Shown piece by piece: positions 2 to 19,717 of a DNA stretch of 21,904 nt. A program made the translations under genes and the position numbers. Source of the stretch: a virus; the IMG/VR virus record IMGVR_UViG_3300005528_000222, positions 1 through 21,904 of that record. One strand, 5' to 3'. Below the pieces are notes generated by a model, which was given only the letters and a program-made list of their open reading frames with translations, ran no database searches and was not told the origin of the DNA. Position 1 is the stretch's first letter. Each line of letters opens with the position of its first letter.

Positions 2-2470
2 TTAAGCATTGACGAATATGCTAACGAAGATTATGATCCAAATGGTCCGCCCCCTGGACCCGAGTTTAAGCCTACGATGCCTGCAGGTACTGTCAGAGTA
101 GACGTTAGTGATGTATACGATTGGTACAAGCTAGGTCAACATATCAGCAATATGAAGGGTTTGGGTAAGCACGATTTCGGTAAAGGTCCTCCCAGCACTA
201 TTTTGTCATTCGGTGATGAAGATACCGAACACAAATATATTCAAGATTTAGAAAAGACTGGATTGACTACGACTGATATTGATCCAGTTGACCCCAAGCA
301 ACCAAAAGGTATGAAGCGTCAAAAAACTGACCCTACATTTAATGTCAATGAGACAGACGATAGAAAAGCAGCAGTACTTAAGATTCAGAAACACTTGAAT
401 AAGAAGTATGGTGCCAACCTTGACCTTGACGGTAAACTAGGTCCGTTGACTCTTAAATCAATCAACAAGTTTATGCCTAGAGCAAAAACTGGATTAGCTG
501 ATGAGCCTAACAAGACAACAGCAGTGCAGGGTAAGAAGCTGAAAGAAGCAAAGATTGATGCCCATCGTCAGGGTGATACTATTTGGATCAACTACTTTGA
601 GGTTCCTGAGAAAGGTAAAGGACTTGGTACTCAAGAATATATGAAGTTTGAAAAGAGCCTTCCTAAAGACATAAAGAAGATTCGTTTAGTAGCAAGTGAT
701 GCCGGATATGGTCCTACTCACGAGTTTTGGGACAGAATGGGATTTGACTATGCTTATCCAGATGATGATAATGAAATGGTTAAGCTGCTAGAAGCCGTCA
801 AGTTCAAAGTACAAAAGGGCAAGAATAAATTCTCTACTGAATTATTAGTAAGCGGTGAACCTGTTGGTATATATCAATACGATGCTACTACTGGACGCAG
901 TATTGCCGAAATTTATCCTGAGTTTAAGGGCAAGGGTTTAGGTAAACTATTAGTCTTACACGCTATCTATACCGCTGCACAATTAGGTCTTGATTTTATA
1001 GAAGATGATTCACGAACCGCAGAATATGATAACGTATTAGATAGCCTAAGCAGCAATGGTTATATAGTAGATGATGATGGATATTGGTATGTCACAGGTG
1101 ACGGAGAACAATATCTGAAACAATCATTAAAAGAAGCCCACCTGGTAGAAACCGCAGAGGAAAATCAAATTATCAATGCAGTTTCTAGAGCAGCCGCTGA
1201 TAAAATTGTCGAGTTCATGCAAGCGAATGAAAGCAAGATATTGGATATGTTATTGGTAGGCATGACTCCCAAAACTCGTCTAATATTATTTGGTTTAAAA
1301 CCAAAAGACCTAAATGTTCCCTCAGTGAAAGACCCGCTACTCAATAAATTATTAAAAACTATGAAAATTAAAGTCAGTACCTATAAGAATTGGAAAAACG
1401 AAAAAGATACAAAGATTTATGGAGAATACTATGAGGGTGATAACAGTATTTTACTTTATTTCCCGGCTCATGAACTTGCTGCTAAAATACGAGGAACAAC
1501 CATTCAATCCGAGGTTGCCAGTACATTATCACATGAAATTCAACATGCGCTTGACGATTTAAAAAGTCAGGGCAAGGCACTAGCAGATCCTATATTATAC
1601 AAAGGAATGAGTAACGATTATCAATCATATCTTAAAAGACCATATGAAGTGAATGCTAGATTCCAACAAGCAACTATGGACATAGCAGAATATGTAGCTA
1701 TGCCAAAGAAAGATGGTAGCAAGGCTACACAGAAAGATTTGCCGGAACTAATTCGTTACGCATTTGAAAAAAATCAATTAGATAAAATCTACGAGAAAAA
1801 TCAAAAAGAATATAAGAGATTATTGTCTCGTGCTTATAAGTTCTTCCAAGCTGAAATGAATGCTCCTAAGAAAGCAACTCCTCAAAATATAGTGAGTAGA
1901 GCAGTCAATTGGATAATGGGTAATTCCACAAAAGAAATTAATGAGGCTTCCGGATACATTCCAAGCGAAAAAGAGAAGAATGATCCTCGCTTCAAGACTG
2001 CACTGACTGTAGACGTTAAGCCAGACTCAATCAAGAAGAATGCTAAGGCGTTCAACTGGAAAACCTCACGAGCAGGCATCCCTCCCCAAGCACGAGCAGA
2101 TGGTAAGCTTGCGGAAGACCTAATGAGAGAGTTTAAAAGTTTTTTACTTGAAGATAAGCAGCCCAAAGTAGGTTATCACGTTACTGCTACAAAAAACTTA
2201 CCAGTCATACGTAAGAACGGAATCAAAGCAGATAGCAGAGGCAATAGCTATGTTTGGGATTCGTTTGAAATGGCTGAATGGTTCACCGACTTTCAGAACG
2301 ATGAGGGTCAAGATAGAACGATATTGAAAATAGATATGACAGGCATTGATGCCCGCCCCGATCCAGAAGCCGAAGACATGAGCGAATGGTCAAGTAGATT
2401 TAAGCCCGGCACGAACGGCGGCGCTTGGATAGTAACAGGTTCTATTCCACCGGACAAAATCATAGGTTGA
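2..2470 (+). CDS. Multidomain phage polyprotein-like protein (GNAT-like, metallopeptidase-like and ART-like modules), 5' end missing
   Basis: The frame is open to the left edge, so the true start lies outside. Residues are counted from the Met at 77, and 25 more precede it. Modules in order: a region with DVSDVYDWYKLG (9-20); a peptidoglycan-binding-like stretch (about 95-135, DGKLGPLT); a mini-GNAT-like domain (158-239, GKGLGT and FWDRMGF); a second GNAT-like domain (240-353, FKGKGLGK); a zinc-peptidase-like domain (354-623, HEIQH at 486-490, possible third ligand E524); a linker (624-692); and an ADP-ribosyltransferase-like domain (693-797, GYHVTATKNLPVIRKNGI). Boundaries coincide with L/I-x-E motifs: LKE|A157/158, LLE|A239/240, LKE|A353/354, INE|A623/624 and LLE|D692/693. 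T4 prohead protease gp21 cuts after L/I-x-E, and T4 packages the ADP-ribosyltransferase Alt. I infer a virion-internal polyprotein. Domain calls rest on motifs read by eye; the reading frame itself is certain. Confidence 0.85.
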   Translation, partial: LSIDEYANEDYDPNGPPPGPEFKPTMPAGTVRVDVSDVYDWYKLGQHISNMKGLGKHDFGKGPPSTILSFGDEDTEHKYIQDLEKTGLTTTDIDPVDPKQPKGMKRQKTDPTFNVNETDDRKAAVLKIQKHLNKKYGANLDLDGKLGPLTLKSINKFMPRAKTGLADEPNKTTAVQGKKLKEAKIDAHRQGDTIWINYFEVPEKGKGLGTQEYMKFEKSLPKDIKKIRLVASDAGYGPTHEFWDRMGFDYAYPDDDNEMVKLLEAVKFKVQKGKNKFSTELLVSGEPVGIYQYDATTGRSIAEIYPEFKGKGLGKLLVLHAIYTAAQLGLDFIEDDSRTAEYDNVLDSLSSNGYIVDDDGYWYVTGDGEQYLKQSLKEAHLVETAEENQIINAVSRAAADKIVEFMQANESKILDMLLVGMTPKTRLILFGLKPKDLNVPSVKDPLLNKLLKTMKIKVSTYKNWKNEKDTKIYGEYYEGDNSILLYFPAHELAAKIRGTTIQSEVASTLSHEIQHALDDLKSQGKALADPILYKGMSNDYQSYLKRPYEVNARFQQATMDIAEYVAMPKKDGSKATQKDLPELIRYAFEKNQLDKIYEKNQKEYKRLLSRAYKFFQAEMNAPKKATPQNIVSRAVNWIMGNSTKEINEASGYIPSEKEKNDPRFKTALTVDVKPDSIKKNAKAFNWKTSRAGIPPQARADGKLAEDLMREFKSFLLEDKQPKVGYHVTATKNLPVIRKNGIKADSRGNSYVWDSFEMAEWFTDFQNDEGQDRTILKIDMTGIDARPDPEAEDMSEWSSRFKPGTNGGAWIVTGSIPPDKIIG

Positions 2471-2894: not shown

Positions 2895-3995
2895 ATGTCT
2901 CAAATGTCCGATAATCTCACTATCACTTCTATTCAGGCCCGTAAGGCTATTCTCGCTGCGTTCAAGGCAAAGCGCCCTGTCTTCCTCTGGGGCCCTCCGG
3001 GTATTGGTAAGTCTGAATGCGTTCAGGAAATCACTGACGAACTCGGTGGCTACATGGTTGATCTTCGCATGGCGCAGATGGAACCGACTGACATTCGCGG
3101 TATCCCCTACTTCAACAAGGAAATCGGCAAGATGGATTGGGCCGAACCTGTTGATCTTCCCAGCGAAGAACTTGCCGCACAGTATCCGATCGTCGTTCTT
3201 TTCCTTGACGAAATGAACTCCGCTCCCCCTGCTGTTCAGGCTGCTGGTTATCAGCTTATTCTGAACCGTCGTGTTGGTAAGTACAAGCTGCCTGATAACG
3301 TTGTTATCGTTGCTGCTGGTAACCGCGATAGCGACAAGGGTGTTACGTATCGTATGCCGATGCCGCTTGCTAACCGTTTCGTTCACCTTGAAATGCGTCC
3401 TGACTTCAACTCTTGGCAGCAGTGGGCTGTTAACAAGGGCGTTCACAAGGACGTTGTTGGTTATCTCTCGTTCGCTAAGCAGGATATGTACGACTTTGAT
3501 GCTAAGGCTTCGTCTCGCGCCTTCGCTACCCCGCGTTCGTGGGTGTTCGTGAGTGACCTGCTCACTGACGAGGACAACGTTGATAACGATACGCTGTTCA
3601 ATCTCGTTGCTGGTGCTGTCGGTGACGGTCTCGCTACCAAGTTCATGGCACATCGTCGTGTTGCTGGTCAGATGCCGAACCCCGCTGACATTCTTGATGG
3701 TAAGGTCAAGGACCTTAAGGTCAAGGAAATCTCTGCGATGTATTCGCTTACGATTTCTATGTGCTACGAACTTAAGGAAGCACTTGACAACAAGCGTGTT
3801 GATAACAAGCAGTTCCACGTGATGGCTGATAACTTCTTTGAATACATCATGAAGAACTTCGAAACTGAACTGGTTGTGATGGGTGCTAAGATTGCGCTTA
3901 AGACGTACCGTCTGCCGATCGAACCCTCGCAGCTTTCTAACTTTGACGAGTTCCACAAGAAGTACGGTAAGTACATCGTGGAAGCTGGCAACTAA
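2895..3995 (+). CDS. MoxR-type AAA+ ATPase
   Basis: This is a 366-residue AAA+ ATPase of MoxR type. Walker A is GPPGIGKS (33-40), Walker B is VVLFLDE (100-106), sensor 1 is AAGN with N143, and the ANRF motif (159-162) supplies the likely arginine finger R161. MoxR ATPases act as ATP-driven chaperones that insert cofactors into, or remodel, partner proteins carrying VWA domains. The VWA gene lies about 325 bases downstream and is the natural partner. The ATG follows TAAGGAG at an 8-base distance. Codon use is strongly biased (GTT, GCT, CGT, AAG, GAC, CTC), unlike the AT-ending codons of most genes here but like gp32 and UvsX, which suggests high expression. The identity of the family is clear; the phage role is unknown. 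Confidence 0.92.
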   Translation: MSQMSDNLTITSIQARKAILAAFKAKRPVFLWGPPGIGKSECVQEITDELGGYMVDLRMAQMEPTDIRGIPYFNKEIGKMDWAEPVDLPSEELAAQYPIVVLFLDEMNSAPPAVQAAGYQLILNRRVGKYKLPDNVVIVAAGNRDSDKGVTYRMPMPLANRFVHLEMRPDFNSWQQWAVNKGVHKDVVGYLSFAKQDMYDFDAKASSRAFATPRSWVFVSDLLTDEDNVDNDTLFNLVAGAVGDGLATKFMAHRRVAGQMPNPADILDGKVKDLKVKEISAMYSLTISMCYELKEALDNKRVDNKQFHVMADNFFEYIMKNFETELVVMGAKIALKTYRLPIEPSQLSNFDEFHKKYGKYIVEAGN

Positions 3996-4008
3996 GTCAG
4001 CAAGCTCC

Positions 4009-4042
4009 GGGGGAGGGTTTGAGACAGCCCTCCCCCATTTTT
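4009..4042 (+). terminator. Rho-independent terminator after the MoxR gene
   Basis: A perfect 9-bp GC-rich stem, GGGGGAGGG (4009-4017) with CCCTCCCCC (4028-4036), encloses a 10-base loop and is followed by ATTTTT. It lies just after the MoxR stop codon and would end the transcript before the zinc-binding miniprotein gene. The next promoter is at 4266. Confidence 0.85.
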
Positions 4043-4055
4043 CGTAGGTATTAAT

Positions 4056-4256
4056 ATGAGCATAGCCACTTGCGCGGTTTGCGGTGTCCAAGTAGAAAGA
4101 ACACTTCATCAATTCCCTACCCGTAAGTATCCGCACAATGCTCCCTACCTTGCCGCTCTATATCACCGAGATCCTTTTTGGGGAAATGGTGATTTTGAAG
4201 AATATTGCGGCCCTAAATGCGCTACAGAGGCTTTCTTAAAAAGCAAACAAGTATAA
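4056..4256 (+). CDS. Small zinc-binding-like protein, 66 aa
   Basis: The protein has CAVC near its N-terminus (C6, C9) and CGPKC (C51, C55), a four-cysteine arrangement suited to one structural zinc ion, with basic and aromatic residues between them (RTLHQFPTRKYPHNAP). I infer a treble-clef or zinc-ribbon-like fold. The start is preceded only by a weak TAGGT, and the gene sits between the MoxR terminator and the VWA promoter, so its expression probably depends on read-through. The ATG start leaves 13 bases after the terminator T-run. The function is not known; nucleic-acid binding or a protein-protein adaptor are the usual possibilities for such miniproteins. Confidence 0.7.
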   Translation: MSIATCAVCGVQVERTLHQFPTRKYPHNAPYLAALYHRDPFWGNGDFEEYCGPKCATEAFLKSKQV

Positions 4257-4265
4257 AGTTTTTGG

Positions 4266-4294
4266 TTGACAATACCGCTTAGGTTTGTTATATT
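4266..4294 (+). promoter_or_regulatory. Sigma70-like promoter of the VWA/HExxH gene
   Basis: A perfect TTGACA (4266-4271), a 17-base spacer and TATATT (4289-4294). The predicted start near 4301 gives a roughly 20-base leader carrying TAAGGAG (4307-4313). The GGTTGACAAT context repeats that at 2465. Confidence 0.75.
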
Positions 4295-4319
4295 GTCTAT
4301 ATCAACTAAGGAGATTTCT

Positions 4320-5624
4320 ATGAGTGACGTTATTCCCGGTACTGCGACTAAGCCTAAGAAGGGCAAGCGTACCCGCAGCAAGAAGTTTGAAAATCTGATC
4401 GGCCCGACCGATCCTAAGATTGATCACGAAGCCCGTGAGCGTCTTATTACCGCTCGTATTGGTCTCCTGCTTCGTCAAAGCTTTTTCGGCAATCTCGCTA
4501 CTCGTTTACAGCTTGTAAACGCTGACGAGTGGTGCTCCACTGCTGCTACTGACGGTCTGCGTTTCTACTACAACAGTCGTTTTATCAAGATGCTTCGCAC
4601 TAAGGAAGTTGAATTCCTTGTCGGTCACGAGGTCCTTCACGTTGTTTACGATCACCTTGGTCGTCGTGACAGCCGCGACCCTGAAATTTGGAACATCGCT
4701 AACGACTATGCTGTTAACGCTGACCTCAAGCGTCACAAGGTCGGTGAAATGATCACTACTGTTCCTGCTCTCTATGAGCAGAAGTATGATGGTCTTGCAT
4801 CCGAAGTCATTTATGACGACCTCATGAAGAACGTCAAGTACATTGATATTGACGAACTCCTCGACAAGATGCTTGACGATCACCTTGAAGATGAAGGTCA
4901 GGGCGAGGGTGACGGCGAAGATAATGGTCAGCAGGGTAATGGTAAGCGTCCGCGGATGAGCCCTGAGGAACGTGAACAAGCCCGTCAGGAAATGAAGCAG
5001 GCTATTCTCAACGCTGCACAGACTGCCGAAGCTGGTACTATCCCGCTGGGCGTTGAACGTCTTATCAAGCAGCTTACTGATCCTGTCATGCCCTGGCGTG
5101 AACTGATCCAGACTAATCTGACCTCTGCTATCAAGTCTGATTACACTTGGATGCGTCCTTCTCGTCGTTCTTGGCACATGGATGCTGTTATGCCTGGTAT
5201 GAATCCTGGTGAAGAAATTGACGTTGATATCTACATTGACATGTCAGGTTCTATCAGCAACAAGCAGGGTATGCAGTTCCTTAGCGAAGTCGCTGGTATG
5301 ATGGAAGCGTTTGATGGTTACTCGCTCCGTGTCACTTGCTTTGATACTCGCTGCTACAACACGCAGGAGTATACTAGTGAGAACATGGAGAACATTGAGG
5401 AGTATCAGCTTCACGGTGGTGGCGGCACCGACTTTGATAGCATCTTTGATGACCTCAAGGAAGCTGGTCGTGTCCCCAATCGTTTGATCGTCTTCACTGA
5501 CGGTTATCCGTGCGGTAGCTGGGGCGATGCTGATTATTGTGATACGACTTGGATCATTCACGGTGACCCCAATCCGAACCCGCCCTTCGGTACGTATGCT
5601 ATCTATGACGACCATAAGAAGTAA
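4320..5624 (+). CDS. HExxH plus VWA-domain protein (DUF2201/COG3864-like), MoxR partner
   Basis: This 434-residue protein has an N-terminal domain with HEVLH (103-107; H103, E104, H107), typical of zinc-dependent peptidase-like domains. An acidic, Gly/Gln-rich linker follows (about 188-208). The C-terminal von Willebrand A-like domain has an intact metal-binding MIDAS: DMSGS (307-311), a Thr in GGGGTD (T370) and D394 in FTDG. The order matches the DUF2201 family, often encoded beside MoxR ATPases. The start at 4320 is chosen because TAAGGAG lies six bases upstream; a longer reading from TTG at 4266 would begin inside the promoter. Codon use is as biased as in the MoxR gene. The pair probably forms an ATP-driven remodelling or maturation complex; substrates are unknown. 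Confidence 0.9.
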   Translation: MSDVIPGTATKPKKGKRTRSKKFENLIGPTDPKIDHEARERLITARIGLLLRQSFFGNLATRLQLVNADEWCSTAATDGLRFYYNSRFIKMLRTKEVEFLVGHEVLHVVYDHLGRRDSRDPEIWNIANDYAVNADLKRHKVGEMITTVPALYEQKYDGLASEVIYDDLMKNVKYIDIDELLDKMLDDHLEDEGQGEGDGEDNGQQGNGKRPRMSPEEREQARQEMKQAILNAAQTAEAGTIPLGVERLIKQLTDPVMPWRELIQTNLTSAIKSDYTWMRPSRRSWHMDAVMPGMNPGEEIDVDIYIDMSGSISNKQGMQFLSEVAGMMEAFDGYSLRVTCFDTRCYNTQEYTSENMENIEEYQLHGGGGTDFDSIFDDLKEAGRVPNRLIVFTDGYPCGSWGDADYCDTTWIIHGDPNPNPPFGTYAIYDDHKK

Positions 5625-12323: not shown

Positions 12324-12863
12324 ATGGCTACACAACAAATCATCAATATCGGTACATTACCTAATGATGGCGAAGGCGATCCGTTACGTGTAGCATTTAG
12401 CAAGATCAACAATAACTTCTCAAATCTATTTTCTACATTTGTTAATACTAGCTTGTCATACAGTAGTGGCAATGTTGCTGGTCAAGTGATATTTGAAACT
12501 CCTGCCAACACATTCACTATGGGGGAAATGTTCGTTTATACCGCAGATTCTAGCACCAATGAGTCACAGACTATTCAATTGTTTGCACAACTCAATCAAT
12601 CAGCAGATGACGTAAAGTTTACTGGCTATGGTAGTACATTTTTCGGAAATGCATTATCTAGTTATGATATGGAAGTGTCAGATGGAAATGTAAAAATATT
12701 AGCTAATCCATTAACTGGCAACCTCTTATTTCACTTTATTGGCTCACAAAACATGTGGGTCGGACCAAACGTTCCAGGTATCCCGTTACAATTGGATGGA
12801 TATATTGCTAATTCAATCATGTCAACTGAGGAAGACCAAGGCGTTACAACAGAGCAACTATAA
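12324..12863 (+). CDS. Virion structural protein, fibre- or neck-like, 179 aa
   Basis: The opening QQIINIGTLPNDGEGDPLRV AFSKINNNF (3-31) resembles a module seen at the start of several T4-like phage fibre and virion proteins (pattern INIG-x-x-PNDG-x-GDPLR-x-AF-x-K-x-NxNF). The remainder is rich in Ser, Thr, Asn and Gly with alternating hydrophobics, as in beta-structured adhesins. It is read from a late promoter at 12293 with a leader of about 18 bases carrying GGAAGG. Its stop overlaps the next start by one base (TAATG). The exact virion location is unknown. Confidence 0.7.
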   Translation: MATQQIINIGTLPNDGEGDPLRVAFSKINNNFSNLFSTFVNTSLSYSSGNVAGQVIFETPANTFTMGEMFVYTADSSTNESQTIQLFAQLNQSADDVKFTGYGSTFFGNALSSYDMEVSDGNVKILANPLTGNLLFHFIGSQNMWVGPNVPGIPLQLDGYIANSIMSTEEDQGVTTEQL

Positions 12864-13252
12864 TGAGGGCACACGAATTCATCACCGAATCAGTTACAGA
12901 TGGGTTAAACATGGTGGCCCATACTCTTCCTAGCACCTACATTATGCCTGACCTTAAGAATAATGACTTCTATGAATTATATCGCTTTGGTTTAGCTATT
13001 GCAGATGTTCGTGGAAGTAGCGGCAATGATGATGTTCAGAACGGATTCAAGCATGAGTTTGAAGCCGAAAGTATGTGGGGAGAGCATCAAGTAGTTGTTT
13101 CTTGGGACCCAAACATTGATCAAGTTCTTGACCAAGCGTTAAGTAAAGTTCACAAAAAAGGTAAAAAGTTAGTCAGTACTAAAACTAGTGACGAGATTCC
13201 TAGCACTAGTACTGGATCACCTTTGAAGCCTTTTAAAGGATATAAGCGATGA
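12863..13252 (+). CDS. Putative capsid-targeted internal protein 1, 129 aa
   Basis: The N-terminus MRAHEFITES resembles the capsid-targeting peptide of T4 internal proteins (MKTYQEFIAEA), which prohead protease gp21 removes after the glutamate; here I-T-E|S would be cut after E9. The core has the pattern FYELYRFGLAIADVRG, related to that of the two downstream paralogues, and the C-terminus ends GSPLKPFKGYKR, nearly identical to the next gene's ending. It is cotranslated with the structural gene (TAATG) and overlaps the next gene as ATGA. I infer packaging inside the head and possibly injection. No enzymatic motif is seen. Confidence 0.7.
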   Translation: MRAHEFITESVTDGLNMVAHTLPSTYIMPDLKNNDFYELYRFGLAIADVRGSSGNDDVQNGFKHEFEAESMWGEHQVVVSWDPNIDQVLDQALSKVHKKGKKLVSTKTSDEIPSTSTGSPLKPFKGYKR

Positions 13253-13623
13253 GAGCTTGGGAATTTATCACTGAAGGGAAGAAAGTTCCCGATTCCCCTG
13301 AACATCACGACGGTCCTATGACCGGGCTTCATAGATTTGCTGACAGCACCTACGACCGTTTTTATCTGTTAAATCGTGTAATGATGGCTGCTGCAAGCAC
13401 AGACGGAAAAACGATCCCTGATATAGACAGCGATAGTTGGGCTTCTCGTTTTAACATAGCACATCCCTACACAAAAGAAGAAGCGGATAAGTTAAAAATA
13501 GCATATAAAGCAGCAGGTGTCAGAAAGTTTGATGACATAACAAACGGAGATTTGTCCAGTACTGAACCAAAAGGCACTAATGATGCTAGCCCAATCAAGC
13601 CATTCAAAGGATATAAAAAGTGA
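13249..13623 (+). CDS. Putative capsid-targeted internal protein 2, 124 aa
   Basis: The N-terminus MRAWEFITEG again fits the EFI-x-E targeting and cleavage pattern (cut predicted after E9). The core, including RFADSTYDRFYLLNRVMMAA, STDGKTIPDID and IAHPYTKEEADKL, aligns clearly with the third paralogue. The C-terminus ASPIKPFKGYKK matches the first. The protein is basic at its end and lacks catalytic motifs. Both flanks overlap neighbours (ATGA, GTGA). The tandem arrangement with shared ends and diverging middles resembles the internal protein genes of T4, but homology to those proteins is not claimed beyond the N-terminal peptide. Confidence 0.7.
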   Translation: MRAWEFITEGKKVPDSPEHHDGPMTGLHRFADSTYDRFYLLNRVMMAAASTDGKTIPDIDSDSWASRFNIAHPYTKEEADKLKIAYKAAGVRKFDDITNGDLSSTEPKGTNDASPIKPFKGYKK

Positions 13624-13997
13624 GAGCTAGTGAATTCATCCATGAAAGCAAGGGTAAGGTGCCTAAAAGACACAATAATGCCCAGCCCGGTGCCTATAAG
13701 TTTATGGACAATGGCACGGATAGAACTTACCACTTGAATCAGATTATGAAAGCAGTAGCAATGGCGGATGGATCATCTACTAAGGCTCTTAAAATGGATG
13801 ATGAAAGCTTTGTCGGTAAAAATAATCTTGCATACCCATATAGTGATTTAGAACATAACATGATGCACCAAGCATTTAATACGGTATCTCCTACCCAAGC
13901 AAAAGCAATGATCAAGGGACGAGATAGCAGCGAGTTGGATTCTGTAAATAAGGTTAGCCCTGTTGCAAAAAGACCAAAAGATCACAGAAAAAAATAA
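13620..13997 (+). CDS. Putative capsid-targeted internal protein 3, 125 aa
   Basis: This gene starts at GTG (13620) in a GTGA overlap. MRASEFIHES carries the same EFI-x-E pattern (cut predicted after E9). The core (KFMDNGTDRTYHLNQIMKAV, MADGSSTK, LAYPYSDLEHNMM) aligns with protein 2: G-x-x-x-F-x-D, DR-x-Y-x-LN, M-x-A, ADG, PY. The C-terminal VSPVAKRPKDHRKK is a diverged, more basic version of the shared ending. Its GTG start rather than ATG may lower its yield. The run ends here, followed by a late promoter for the methyltransferase. Confidence 0.7.
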   Translation: MRASEFIHESKGKVPKRHNNAQPGAYKFMDNGTDRTYHLNQIMKAVAMADGSSTKALKMDDESFVGKNNLAYPYSDLEHNMMHQAFNTVSPTQAKAMIKGRDSSELDSVNKVSPVAKRPKDHRKK

Positions 13998-17980: not shown

Positions 17981-19717
17981 ATGGCCACTGACAACGAATC
18001 ATTCAACCGCGACTTATACGACCTTCTCAAAGTAAGAGGGTATCAACCTGTTCCACTAGACAGTAAGAATCAACGAGTTCCTGCTAGTCAGGCTGCTGAT
18101 GTTATTCAGTTTACTTTCAATAAAGACGGTAAAGATTACGGCAAAGCATGGGTATCAATTGATGATGCTGCTAACGTCATTGTATACTATGACGAAGAAC
18201 AGCAAGAAAGCCCCAGCACTACTACTCCGGGCGCAGAATATGACGATAGTTGGACTGGGTTCTTAAAGCATTTAAAGAATTGGGCACAACGTAGACAATT
18301 AAGTTTTGAATTGTCAAACAAAGATCGTCTAGGCGACGATATGAGACAACGGGATTACTATAAGATGAAAGAAAAGCTAGGCGAGAGCTACCATCCAATG
18401 GGTAGAAAAGCAAGTTATAATGACGCAGTTCCAAATGTAAAGATCATTCTACAACATAACCGCGCACTTGAAGAAGGTGAACAGCGTTATCGTAACGTAG
18501 CTAAGATTTTCCTTGAGAACCAAGAAGGTGAAAGATTCCTTGCTCCAACTACCCGCCCTGGCATCGCTCGTGTATATGCTCGTCATATCGCAGAAGGCGG
18601 CGTACCCAATGATGACAAGTGGAATCATATCAAGTCAGTATGTGAAGACTATAACAAGATGGCTGGATTTGTTCGTGCAACTCGTAATGGTCAGTTCAAT
18701 GAATCAGCACAAGAATTAGTAAACGAAGGTATCAATCACTATACTAGCTTGCGTGAAACACTACACAAGTTGACTACTCACAAAGGATATCAAAATTATT
18801 TTGAATCTTGGACTCCTACACTAATGGAAGACGAACTTGACGAATCAATCAATGACTTGTTCGTTCAAGAAATGGTAGACCCTCGCATTGAATCAGCAAT
18901 GCCAATCTTATCAAGACTCAAGAAGCCAGTAACTGAAATGGAAGAAATTGATACTCTAGCAGAATGGGCAGACAGCGTTATCAATGAGAAGCTAGAACTT
19001 GACGAGGGCGATGTTGTCCCGTTCAAGAAGAAGCAAGATGATGATTTAGATGACGATGATGACGATAGCTGGATTCCATCAGAAGAAGACTTTGAGCGTG
19101 AAGAAGAAATGCGTAATCGTAAACCTCACGCCGCAAATGATGTAAACGAAATGGACAAAGAACACGGGTCAAAGCGTGACTTTGACAATGCAAGAGGTCC
19201 AGATAAGACTGCTAAGATGCTAGCTGCTAAAAAAGCTATGAAGGATGCTAGAAAGACTCTTGACAAAGCATTCAAGGGCGATGTTGAAGAAAACTTTATC
19301 AGCATGGCACCCCAAACAGTAGCAGAAGAAGAAGTTGAAGAAGCCCGCACCAAAAAGGTAAATGTAGAAGTTACTGATAAAGGTGCAGTTTACGTTAATG
19401 ATACTCGTATTACAGGTCGCCATACTAAATGGGGAATACAAAATACTATATTTCAGGCGAAAGTTCCCTTAGACCAAGTAGTACAAACATTGCGTGATAA
19501 TGGATTCGGAAACATTAGACTTGATCCTCAATATTCTGCGGAAATGGGAATCCAGCTTGAAGAAGATTTGGGTCCAGAACAAAAGCGTGTAGGTCAACTT
19601 GGTCCTACTGAGAAGGTAAAGAACAACAATATCGGTAAATTAGTTGGTGCCAGCGAATCAACAGAGATTGATCCAGAATTAGCTCGTATCATAGAAATGG
19701 CACTTTTCAAAAGATAA
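17981..19717 (+). CDS. Large phage protein of unknown function, acidic, 578 aa
   Basis: I do not recognise a characterised family. The N-terminus (about 1-70: FNRDLYDLLKVRGYQPVPLD, FTFNKDGKDYGKAWVSI) looks like a small folded domain. The middle (about 135-285) is basic and helical (NVKIILQHNRALEEGEQRYR, RPGIARVYARHIAEGG). An intensely acidic tract follows (about 354-376, with DDDLDDDDDD), then a Lys-rich helix (410-432) and a C-terminal beta-rich domain (455-525). L/I-x-E sites such as LGE|S (133-136) and IAE|G (203-206) could be prohead-protease targets, but they are less domain-spaced than in the polyprotein at 2-2470. It lies right after the terminase on its own late promoter, which suggests a virion or assembly role. 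Confidence 0.75.
   Translation: MATDNESFNRDLYDLLKVRGYQPVPLDSKNQRVPASQAADVIQFTFNKDGKDYGKAWVSIDDAANVIVYYDEEQQESPSTTTPGAEYDDSWTGFLKHLKNWAQRRQLSFELSNKDRLGDDMRQRDYYKMKEKLGESYHPMGRKASYNDAVPNVKIILQHNRALEEGEQRYRNVAKIFLENQEGERFLAPTTRPGIARVYARHIAEGGVPNDDKWNHIKSVCEDYNKMAGFVRATRNGQFNESAQELVNEGINHYTSLRETLHKLTTHKGYQNYFESWTPTLMEDELDESINDLFVQEMVDPRIESAMPILSRLKKPVTEMEEIDTLAEWADSVINEKLELDEGDVVPFKKKQDDDLDDDDDDSWIPSEEDFEREEEMRNRKPHAANDVNEMDKEHGSKRDFDNARGPDKTAKMLAAKKAMKDARKTLDKAFKGDVEENFISMAPQTVAEEEVEEARTKKVNVEVTDKGAVYVNDTRITGRHTKWGIQNTIFQAKVPLDQVVQTLRDNGFGNIRLDPQYSAEMGIQLEEDLGPEQKRVGQLGPTEKVKNNNIGKLVGASESTEIDPELARIIEMALFKR

Follow-up and report, generated by a model that had tools for sequence, protein, structure and literature searches.

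The 5' end of the window analysed here, by which we mean the whole stretch of 21,904 nucleotides from the virus record IMGVR_UViG_3300005528_000222 (positions 1 to 21,904), is occupied by a long open reading frame (ORF) that raises a question: what is the purpose of a phage protein in which several unrelated enzyme-like modules follow one another, and how could they be released from a single chain? An earlier reading, made from the letters of this DNA without database searches (the sequence-only reading), proposed that the gene encodes a precursor that is packaged in the virion and cut into separate effectors by a T4-like prohead protease. As a whole this proposal is largely supported by the comparisons reported below, with packaging and cutting of this particular protein being predicted. 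What the ORF encodes is probably a polyprotein made of effector modules from a T4-like jumbo phage, packaged and cut by the phage's own gp21-type protease.

The ORF at positions 2-2470 (+ strand) is open at its 5' end and comprises 822 residues in the window (protein P0001). The complete gene is present in the IMG/VR contig L003 (9305-12469) and encodes a protein of 1054 aa, of which the window ORF represents the C-terminal 822 aa. The Met codon at position 77, from which the sequence-only reading counted, is therefore not the start, as the window opens in mid-gene. The true N-terminus is MDINELESF, and the 232 residues absent from the window form a Pol-beta-type nucleotidyltransferase (NTase) with the motif GSN...SDLDLH. 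This head matches PHROG 36119 (function unknown) with an E-value of 1.9e-43 and Pfam NTP_transf_2 with just 0.018; the Pfam match is weak, and it is the motif and the relatives that make the NTase assignment look clear. The gene belongs to a set of 76 NTase-headed ORFs of 284-1723 aa in uncultured virus contigs, gathered by three module-directed scans with a pattern that left out some true members, e.g. in L118 and L140. Swap points among these relatives and conserved ends delimit eight modules in the 1054-aa protein. The part lying in the window is as follows, with residues numbered on P0001 unless indicated and a caret marking the predicted cut.

2-16, + strand: C-terminal end of the NTase head, up to SIDE^Y (E5, corresponding to E237 of the 1054-aa protein; codon 14-16), with homology breakpoints at residues 237 and 240 of the latter.
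17-352, + strand: module 'EDYDPNGPPPGPEF...DPTFNVNE' (DYDPNG module), function unknown; its right end is NVNE^T (E117, codon 350-352), with V-x-E in 18/18 distinct downstream contexts.
353-547, + strand: peptidoglycan-binding-like module, ending with LKE^A (E182), a swap point in L009, L010 and L012.
548-793, + strand: short module with a KGKGLG motif, GNAT-like only by eye, ending with LLE^A (E264), a swap point in L005.
794-1135, + strand: GNAT acetyltransferase-like module, ending with LKE^A (E378); Pfam Acetyltransf_1 with E 0.004, under the cut-off, and a modest fold match.
1136-1150, + strand: five-residue spacer AHLVE, ending with a second site, LVE^T (E383, codon 1148-1150), and aligning with the peptide that opens stand-alone HExxH relatives.
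1151-1945, + strand: HExxH (zincin-like) metallopeptidase module, with HEIQH at 1532-1546, ending with INE^A (E648).
1946-2152, + strand: conserved module ASGYIPSEKEKNDPRF...SFLLE (GYIP module), ending with LLE^D (E717); its junction statistics come from 42 distinct upstream sequences.
2153-2470, + strand: C-terminal module, weakly similar to KptA or ADP-ribosyltransferases (ART); PHROG RNA 2'-phosphotransferase with E 0.011 and Pfam PTS_2-RNA with E 0.23.

The sequence-only reading had proposed a peptidoglycan-binding-like part, two GNAT-like domains, an HExxH metallopeptidase-like domain, a linker and an ART-like end. Conservation bears out the HExxH call, as HExxH and YE[VI]NAR are shared with gp104 and gp105 of PA5oct, and a modest fold match bears out the second GNAT call, while the first GNAT, peptidoglycan-binding and ART calls in the window's protein are all weak. 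For the peptidoglycan-binding-like module, the Pfam families PG_binding_3 (E 0.023) and PG_binding_1 (E 0.065) come up below the cut-off, and PHROGs gives an endolysin (E 0.0023). Neither the short KGKGLG module, whose model is of low confidence, nor the GYIP module has a Pfam match at E ≤ 1 or a PHROG match at E ≤ 0.1. The whole 822-aa protein gives weak matches only, none of them named Alt at E ≤ 0.1 in Pfam and E ≤ 0.01 in PHROGs, in searches whose HMMER filters drop weak matches. In the relative L012, an ART-PolyVal domain (PF18760, E 1.6e-16) lies at the place of the window's C-terminal module; this family is matched by 10 of the 64 ORFs, out of the 76 NTase-headed ones, that were scanned with Pfam, and not by the window's protein. 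The other Pfam matches among these 64 are DUF6934 (18), GNAT (13), DUF5661 (5), ParB_N (4) and deaminase (3), with zeta toxin, methyltransferase and GIY-YIG domains found once each.

Structure prediction adds modestly to this map. The model of the 1054-aa protein is poor (confidence score pLDDT 51, with 607/1054 residues under 50); the NTase helices are confident, as is most of a block at about residues 616-873, which is bracketed by E615 and E880 in full-length numbering. A fold search with the full-length model gave no match at E ≤ 0.001, the NTase and YbeY-like rows being weak, an outcome that rules out no family. Residues 415-610 of the 1054-aa protein were modelled separately (mean pLDDT 58), and the second half of that model is acetyltransferase-like. 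With Foldseek its best E-value is 5.9e-3 and nearly all of the best 50 rows are acetyltransferases; structural comparison (VIA) gives Z-scores up to 7.5 with a root-mean-square deviation of 4.0 over 106 residues, a Z under 8 being modest. The matches begin at model residue 75-85, around E496 in full-length numbering, in 36 of the 50 rows shown and at 41-70 in the others. The assignment of the short module as a first GNAT is unsupported. Alignment A6, which set the peptidase rows wrongly, was left out of folding.

What joins these modules? The five L/I-x-E motifs named by the sequence-only reading lie where it placed them (counting from Met77, LKE157^A, LLE239^A, LKE353^A, INE623^A and LLE692^D), and they are the places where relatives exchange modules. 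Its list was incomplete, as NVNE^T (E117) and LVE^T (E383) were overlooked, together with SIDE^Y (E5) upstream of Met77. Taken alone, the motif counts in the window's protein are suggestive, not convincing. The 822-aa frame contains 13 [LI]xE motifs versus 7.5 in shuffled sequences, 2.3% of which reach 13, and four LxE motifs followed by Ala versus 0.54, with 0.28% of the shuffles reaching four. That 13 motifs in 822 aa are just 1.7 times the expectation is what one could say for chance occurrence in a long Leu- and Glu-rich protein; since the site is kept between different neighbours and coincides with swap points, we give that explanation next to no probability. The motif count by itself being weak, the case rests on the relatives.

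Modules are swapped at the joints. Near relatives have the head in common, and it is the middle that varies. Downstream of the shared ...GKKLKE, the chain continues with AKIDAHR in L003, ADKTLG in L009, ASDYSQ in L010 and SQYENK in L012, and after ...MVKLLEA, L005 switches to a different module. Just before the conserved ASGYIPS module, the chain reads INE, IWE, LYE or IDE. We collected 89 junctions before ASGYIP and thinned them to 42 distinct upstream sequences by requiring fewer than 5/11 identical upstream residues; a few of the 42, e.g. those of L031 and L053, still look related when shifted. The last residue before the junction (P1) is Glu in 41/42, and P3 is V, I, L or M in 39/42 (V 16, I 14, L 7, M 2), against a background rate of 0.0175 per site for [ILVM]xE in these proteins. 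Unthinned, the corresponding figures are 75/77 and 73/77. P2 is free (entropy of 3.61 bits, versus 0.16 bits at P1 and 3.2-3.95 bits farther upstream). Similarly, V-x-E with a varying P2 ends the DYDPNG module (DPT[YF]) before 18/18 distinct downstream sequences. T4 gp21 is described as cutting after L/I-x-E (PMC9026906). P3 and P1 kept around a free P2 are the gp21 pattern; shared descent of a linker is not expected to free P2 alone.

The same signal emerges without choosing a joint in advance. Among 389 sharp, non-redundant homology breakpoints in the 76 ORFs, 108 fall within one residue of the end of an [ILVM]xE motif (21.7 expected) and 48 exactly on it (7.3 expected); the binomial figure for the motif at breakpoints is 1.4e-44, for breakpoints that are not fully independent. 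Related motifs behave differently, as judged from observed and, in brackets, expected counts: [ILVM]xD 8 (19.5), [ILVM]xK 19 (24.1), [ILVM]xS 8 (14.2), [ILVM]xA 7 (13.1), [ILVM]xN 14 (12.0), [KR]xE 3 (6.8), [AG]xE 12 (12.4) and [FYW]xE 6 (5.3). Some others are raised, namely [DE]xE 22 (13.7), [ILVM]xQ 17 (11.4) and [NQ]xE 11 (5.6). These strict breakpoints supersede an earlier, noisy test on 1165 gapped BLAST ends, which gave 1.98x for [LI]xE and 1.88x for [VF]xE at 4 residues. A second polyprotein family, with an MSNILKG-like head, comprises 17 ORFs of 359-1340 aa (e.g. L141 8298+, L120 7863+ and L081 7282+), members of which have modules in common with the NTase-headed family and, in several loci, are found downstream of it; 36 of its 159 breakpoints are within one residue of [ILVM]xE, for 9.5 expected.

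Could the joints be mere relics? The protein might be an uncut polyvalent protein, packaged or cytoplasmic, whose [ILVM]xE joints were left by the targeting peptides of fused genes. Stand-alone relatives do bear such peptides at their N-termini, LKEAHLVE^T of the window's protein aligns with one of them, and cleavage has not been observed. Relics should decay, yet the P1 Glu and the hydrophobic P3 are kept at the GYIP joints, and V-x-E at all the DYDPNG joints, while P2 and the upstream residues vary. Furthermore, no remainder of the targeting peptide (M[RK]xxEF) can be discerned at the GYIP and DYDPNG joints, which argues that the cutting core is what is kept. We consider the uncut protein unlikely.

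A polyprotein with gp21-type joints calls for a matching protease, and the same virus encodes one, as the sequence-only reading had implied. The window aligns collinearly with contig G002 (126,519 bases) from position 98,063 onwards, with 93 mismatches in 21,904 (99.6% identity), indicating that the two represent the same or nearly the same virus. G002 harbours an S77 protease gene (Pfam PF03420 at C1:23306-23761, E 1.1e-29) whose product matches the structure of T4 gp21 (5JBL) with an E-value of 6.2e-15 and retains the DHP and SSRG motifs, which we take to hold the catalytic His and Ser. S77 was found in 2/10 records of a first search (G002 and PA5oct) and in 13/27 contigs of a second one, including all 10 above 200 kb; three of the latter (G013, G031 and G032) share an identical polyprotein ORF (L075-L077) and amount to about one virus, not independent ones, and G018 was reached via an ORF with a DYDPNG module but no NTase head. 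Gp23 was found in 8/8 contigs searched. In seven of them, G002 included, the first 43 or so residues of its N-terminus contain four [LI]xE sites (LLE^S7, LLE^G19, LLE^N34 and LAE^S43 in G002), the eighth (L246) not having been read. Another likely substrate encoded by this genome thus shows the expected specificity. Long charged ORFs neighbour the G002 protease gene and are taken for head-core proteins by position only. At L016 1378-2934, a 300-aa acidic ORF adjoins the protease, with a 369-aa ORF on the other side; this is perhaps the head core. An ORF resembling the 300-aa one is present in L238.

The window's protein contains a peptidase of its own, and domain release by embedded MPTase domains has been proposed for polyvalent proteins (PMC5512222), so self-processing by the HExxH module deserves consideration. 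A homologue of this module is present in just 8 of the 76 ORFs (68 have none) and any HExxH string in 10 (66 have none), two counts that supersede the 7/76 obtained with a narrow pattern; self-cutting by the HExxH module therefore cannot serve the family. As the site is moreover of the gp21 type and an S77 protease is at hand, we regard self-processing as very improbable.

Is there reason to place such modules in the head? Stand-alone relatives of the modules were counted after dropping ORFs below 100 aa, MSN... starts and leftover NTase-like starts, and the remaining 80 were clustered to 62. A strict T4-like capsid-targeting N-terminus is found in 32 of these 62 clusters versus 27/684 background clusters from a random sample of 900 ORFs (odds ratio 26), with 0.145 strict matches per set in shuffled N-termini. 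The other 30 clusters lack it, 23 of them failing a looser pattern too. Stand-alone HExxH relatives often start with such peptides, e.g. MRAYEFLIE^TADENQII (L172) and MRFNEFVTE^TAEEDRAI (L207), and the internal ...SLKEAHLVE^TAEENQII of the window's protein aligns with these N-termini, which makes E383, five residues after E378, the likelier start of the mature peptidase. In PA5oct, gp104 starts with MKILEFNLTE^KAS and gp105 with VRLNEINLIE^TSDEEL; both are noted as 'structural protein, ESI-MS/MS' in GenBank. For the NTase, a stand-alone relative with 34.5% identity is gp156 of cyanophage S-CREM2 (126012-126725), listed as ORF156 in the virion proteome table of that phage with 6 unique peptides and 15.2% coverage (PMC10665884). 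In cyanophage S-CRM01, two proteins with T4-like targeting starts are encoded near the NTase gene, one annotated as serine/threonine kinase PKN8 (MISFDQFLSEKK; L019 402-2867) and one of 78 aa (MKKLDQFLTEK; L019 2890-3126). The window itself has three small ORFs with T4-like capsid-targeting peptides by pattern, which are candidate internal proteins.

12863-13252, + strand: small ORF starting with MRAHEFITE^S.
13249-13623, + strand: small ORF starting with MRAWEFITE^G.
13620-13997, + strand: small ORF with a GTG start followed by RASEFIHE^S.

A number of observations weigh against a packaged and cut polyprotein. For none of the fused members has a processed chain been seen, be it as an N-terminus, a peptide or a cleavage event. 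The sequence-only reading asked whether the missing 5' end carries an EFI-x-E peptide; the complete N-terminus, MDINELESF, does not have one. The family's N-termini read M-x-[ILF]-x-E in 72/76 cases, with Leu or Ile at position 6 in 76/76, so that the head lacks the canonical peptide and appears similar to its first half; that a protein could be targeted by internal sites has no evidence behind it. The five sites of the sequence-only reading are all in low-confidence stretches of the model, which means little since 58% of the residues are, and [ILVM]xE is found inside folded domains too. Val occupies P3 in 16/42 GYIP joints, unlike the L/I-x-E described for T4. The fused form is absent from all 10 phage records examined, out of 45 with an NTase match, no phage record covers 80% of the 822 aa, and the GYIP-ART end has no tblastn match in phage records. 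The S77 protease was not seen in 14/27 contigs, all under 200 kb. Lastly, breakpoints also show a rise of [ST]xE, both in the NTase-headed family (22 for 11.1 expected) and in the MSNILKG family (22 versus 5.4), and a raw control of 650 other ORFs is itself enriched in [ILVM]xE, with 116/1033 breakpoints versus 52.5 expected.

The excess in the control has two parts. A linked group of 89 ORFs, many, not all, with capsid-targeting-like (CTS-like) or MSNILKG-like starts, accounts for 73 breakpoints versus 21.0, and a group of 12 ORFs for 12/37 versus 4.3; the longest member of the latter with breakpoints comes from L238, which surrounds the G018 protease, and the group includes the L238 ORF that resembles the acidic neighbour of the G002 protease. 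Without both groups, whose exclusion was decided after seeing the data, the control falls to 31/658 versus 27.2 expected. CTS-headed ORFs show 24/133 breakpoints at [ILVM]xE versus 7.7, as well as 10 at [ST]xE versus 2.7 and 7 at [KR]xE versus 2.5. These figures bear on yet another explanation, that of a cytoplasmic set of early enzymes that is never packaged, with the motif reflecting composition bias of linkers or recombination sites. The rise of [ST]xE would fit, as would the location of some NTase relatives among replication genes in other phages, where no virion record was seen. However, neither [ILVM]xD nor [ILVM]xK is in excess, nor is [ILVM]xE at the remaining control breakpoints, and there are virion records for NTase as well as HExxH relatives; a purely cytoplasmic role thus seems quite improbable.

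We therefore retain the packaged and cut polyprotein. Its chain would comprise, in order, the nucleotidyltransferase, the DYDPNG module, the peptidoglycan-binding-like module, the short module, the GNAT, the HExxH peptidase, the GYIP module and the ART-like end. It would join the prohead core alongside other capsid-targeted proteins, and the phage's gp21-type S77 protease would then cut after the [ILVM]-x-E joints to yield separate enzymes. Cutting at the joints by this protease is quite probable, and so, to the same degree, is packaging of the chain in the head. The freed enzymes would remain in the head and, by analogy with T4 and given the kinds of domain, presumably enter the host with the DNA.

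It is tempting to go one step further. At least two loci, the NTase-headed and the MSNILKG-headed ones, might be open cassettes that take any enzyme between [ILVM]-x-E joints, a single head bringing the chain into the prohead and the maturation protease freeing the enzymes in the capsid at a fixed ratio. We see the chances of this idea as about even. If it is true, the protease site doubles as cutting site and as joint for the evolutionary exchange of modules, and the phage would have a polyprotein system whose maturation takes place in trans within the particle.

Several neighbouring genes and related loci are worth recording. Downstream of the polyprotein gene, at window positions 2895-5624, an ORF labelled ATPase by PHROGs lies beside one labelled HNH endonuclease, and the pair also follows the polyprotein in L008, L009 and L012. 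Upstream of the polyprotein, L009 (2143-8133) and L012 (1883-7630) have an ORF of about 1900-2000 aa, function unknown, in which a repeat of the form FDFSWHPD..PPYIYxFG...YVVPGATE.KYVD recurs in many degenerate copies. At window positions 17981-19717, a 578-aa ORF with acidic stretches adjoins the terminase gene and matches PHROG 13484 'virion structural protein' (E 3.9e-8); it may be another prohead-protease substrate. Finally, the linked group of 89 ORFs includes long ORFs headed MKIAALLESRKCLLEGG or similar (L120 91+, L126 391+ and L134 1182+), the first of which has LLE^S and LLE^G in its first 16 residues; these are possibly a third polyprotein family.

If the proposed polyprotein is real, [ILVM]-x-E between modules provides a sequence rule to find, and to parse, the effector sets packaged in the heads of uncultured T4-like jumbo phages. 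It would also account for the release of parts from long multidomain phage proteins that have no embedded protease, yield many enzymes that are candidates for host takeover or anti-defence and whose exact ends are predicted, and make the capsid sorting and processing of mixed protein cargo testable.

How does this compare with known systems? The closest kind is that of the polyvalent proteins, together with the gp21-processed internal proteins of T4. Polyvalent proteins carry 2 to 15 effector domains per chain, including Pol-beta NTase, GNAT, MPTase, ART and ParB types, in mosaic architectures predicted to be delivered with the genome (Iyer et al. 2017, PMC5512222). The NTase, GNAT, MPTase and ART types may recur in the window's protein, where the second GNAT has a modest fold match, HExxH is conserved and the others are weak; some relatives score clearly. 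As that source describes them, their parts are released by embedded peptidases or the protein stays whole (PMC5512222), whereas here a prohead-protease motif marks the joints and 68 of the 76 ORFs are without an HExxH homologue. DarA and DdrB of phage P1 are head-carried antirestriction proteins, described or believed to be proteolytically processed (PMC5512222, PMC9024508); the available text of these sources gives no site and no cut at every joint for them, and we set them apart by such descriptions only. The internal proteins of T4 (IPI-III and Alt) share the L/I-x-E specificity, the S77-type protease and the removal of a propeptide (PMC9026906), and the three EFITE- or EFIHE-start ORFs of the window recall them. 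As described, they are single effectors cut at their ends, unlike several fused enzyme modules with a site at each joint and a head without EFI-x-E. T4 gp22, gp67 and gp68 each provide a precedent for one precursor with several gp21 cuts (PMC9026906); the pieces here would, in contrast, be folded enzyme modules. In SPN3US, the prohead protease gp245 also makes several cuts per protein, but the cuts identified in that phage, save those of the protease itself, yield N-terminal propeptides, not separate enzyme modules (PMC10052503). The polyproteins of eukaryotic RNA viruses, an analogy drawn in PMC5512222, are likewise split into functional units by a viral protease; no homology is claimed, and the protease here would be a separate head-assembly enzyme. 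We found no description of effector polyproteins joined by prohead-protease sites in the literature searched, a scope with most subscription journals and bioRxiv preprints outside it, nor any system in which many enzymes are combined, each joint has a prohead-protease site and modules are exchanged there. Each separate element is known from T4, namely the targeting peptide, the L/I-x-E site and several cuts in core proteins (PMC9026906); what looks new is that the prohead protease is predicted to act in trans and free the modules at every joint.

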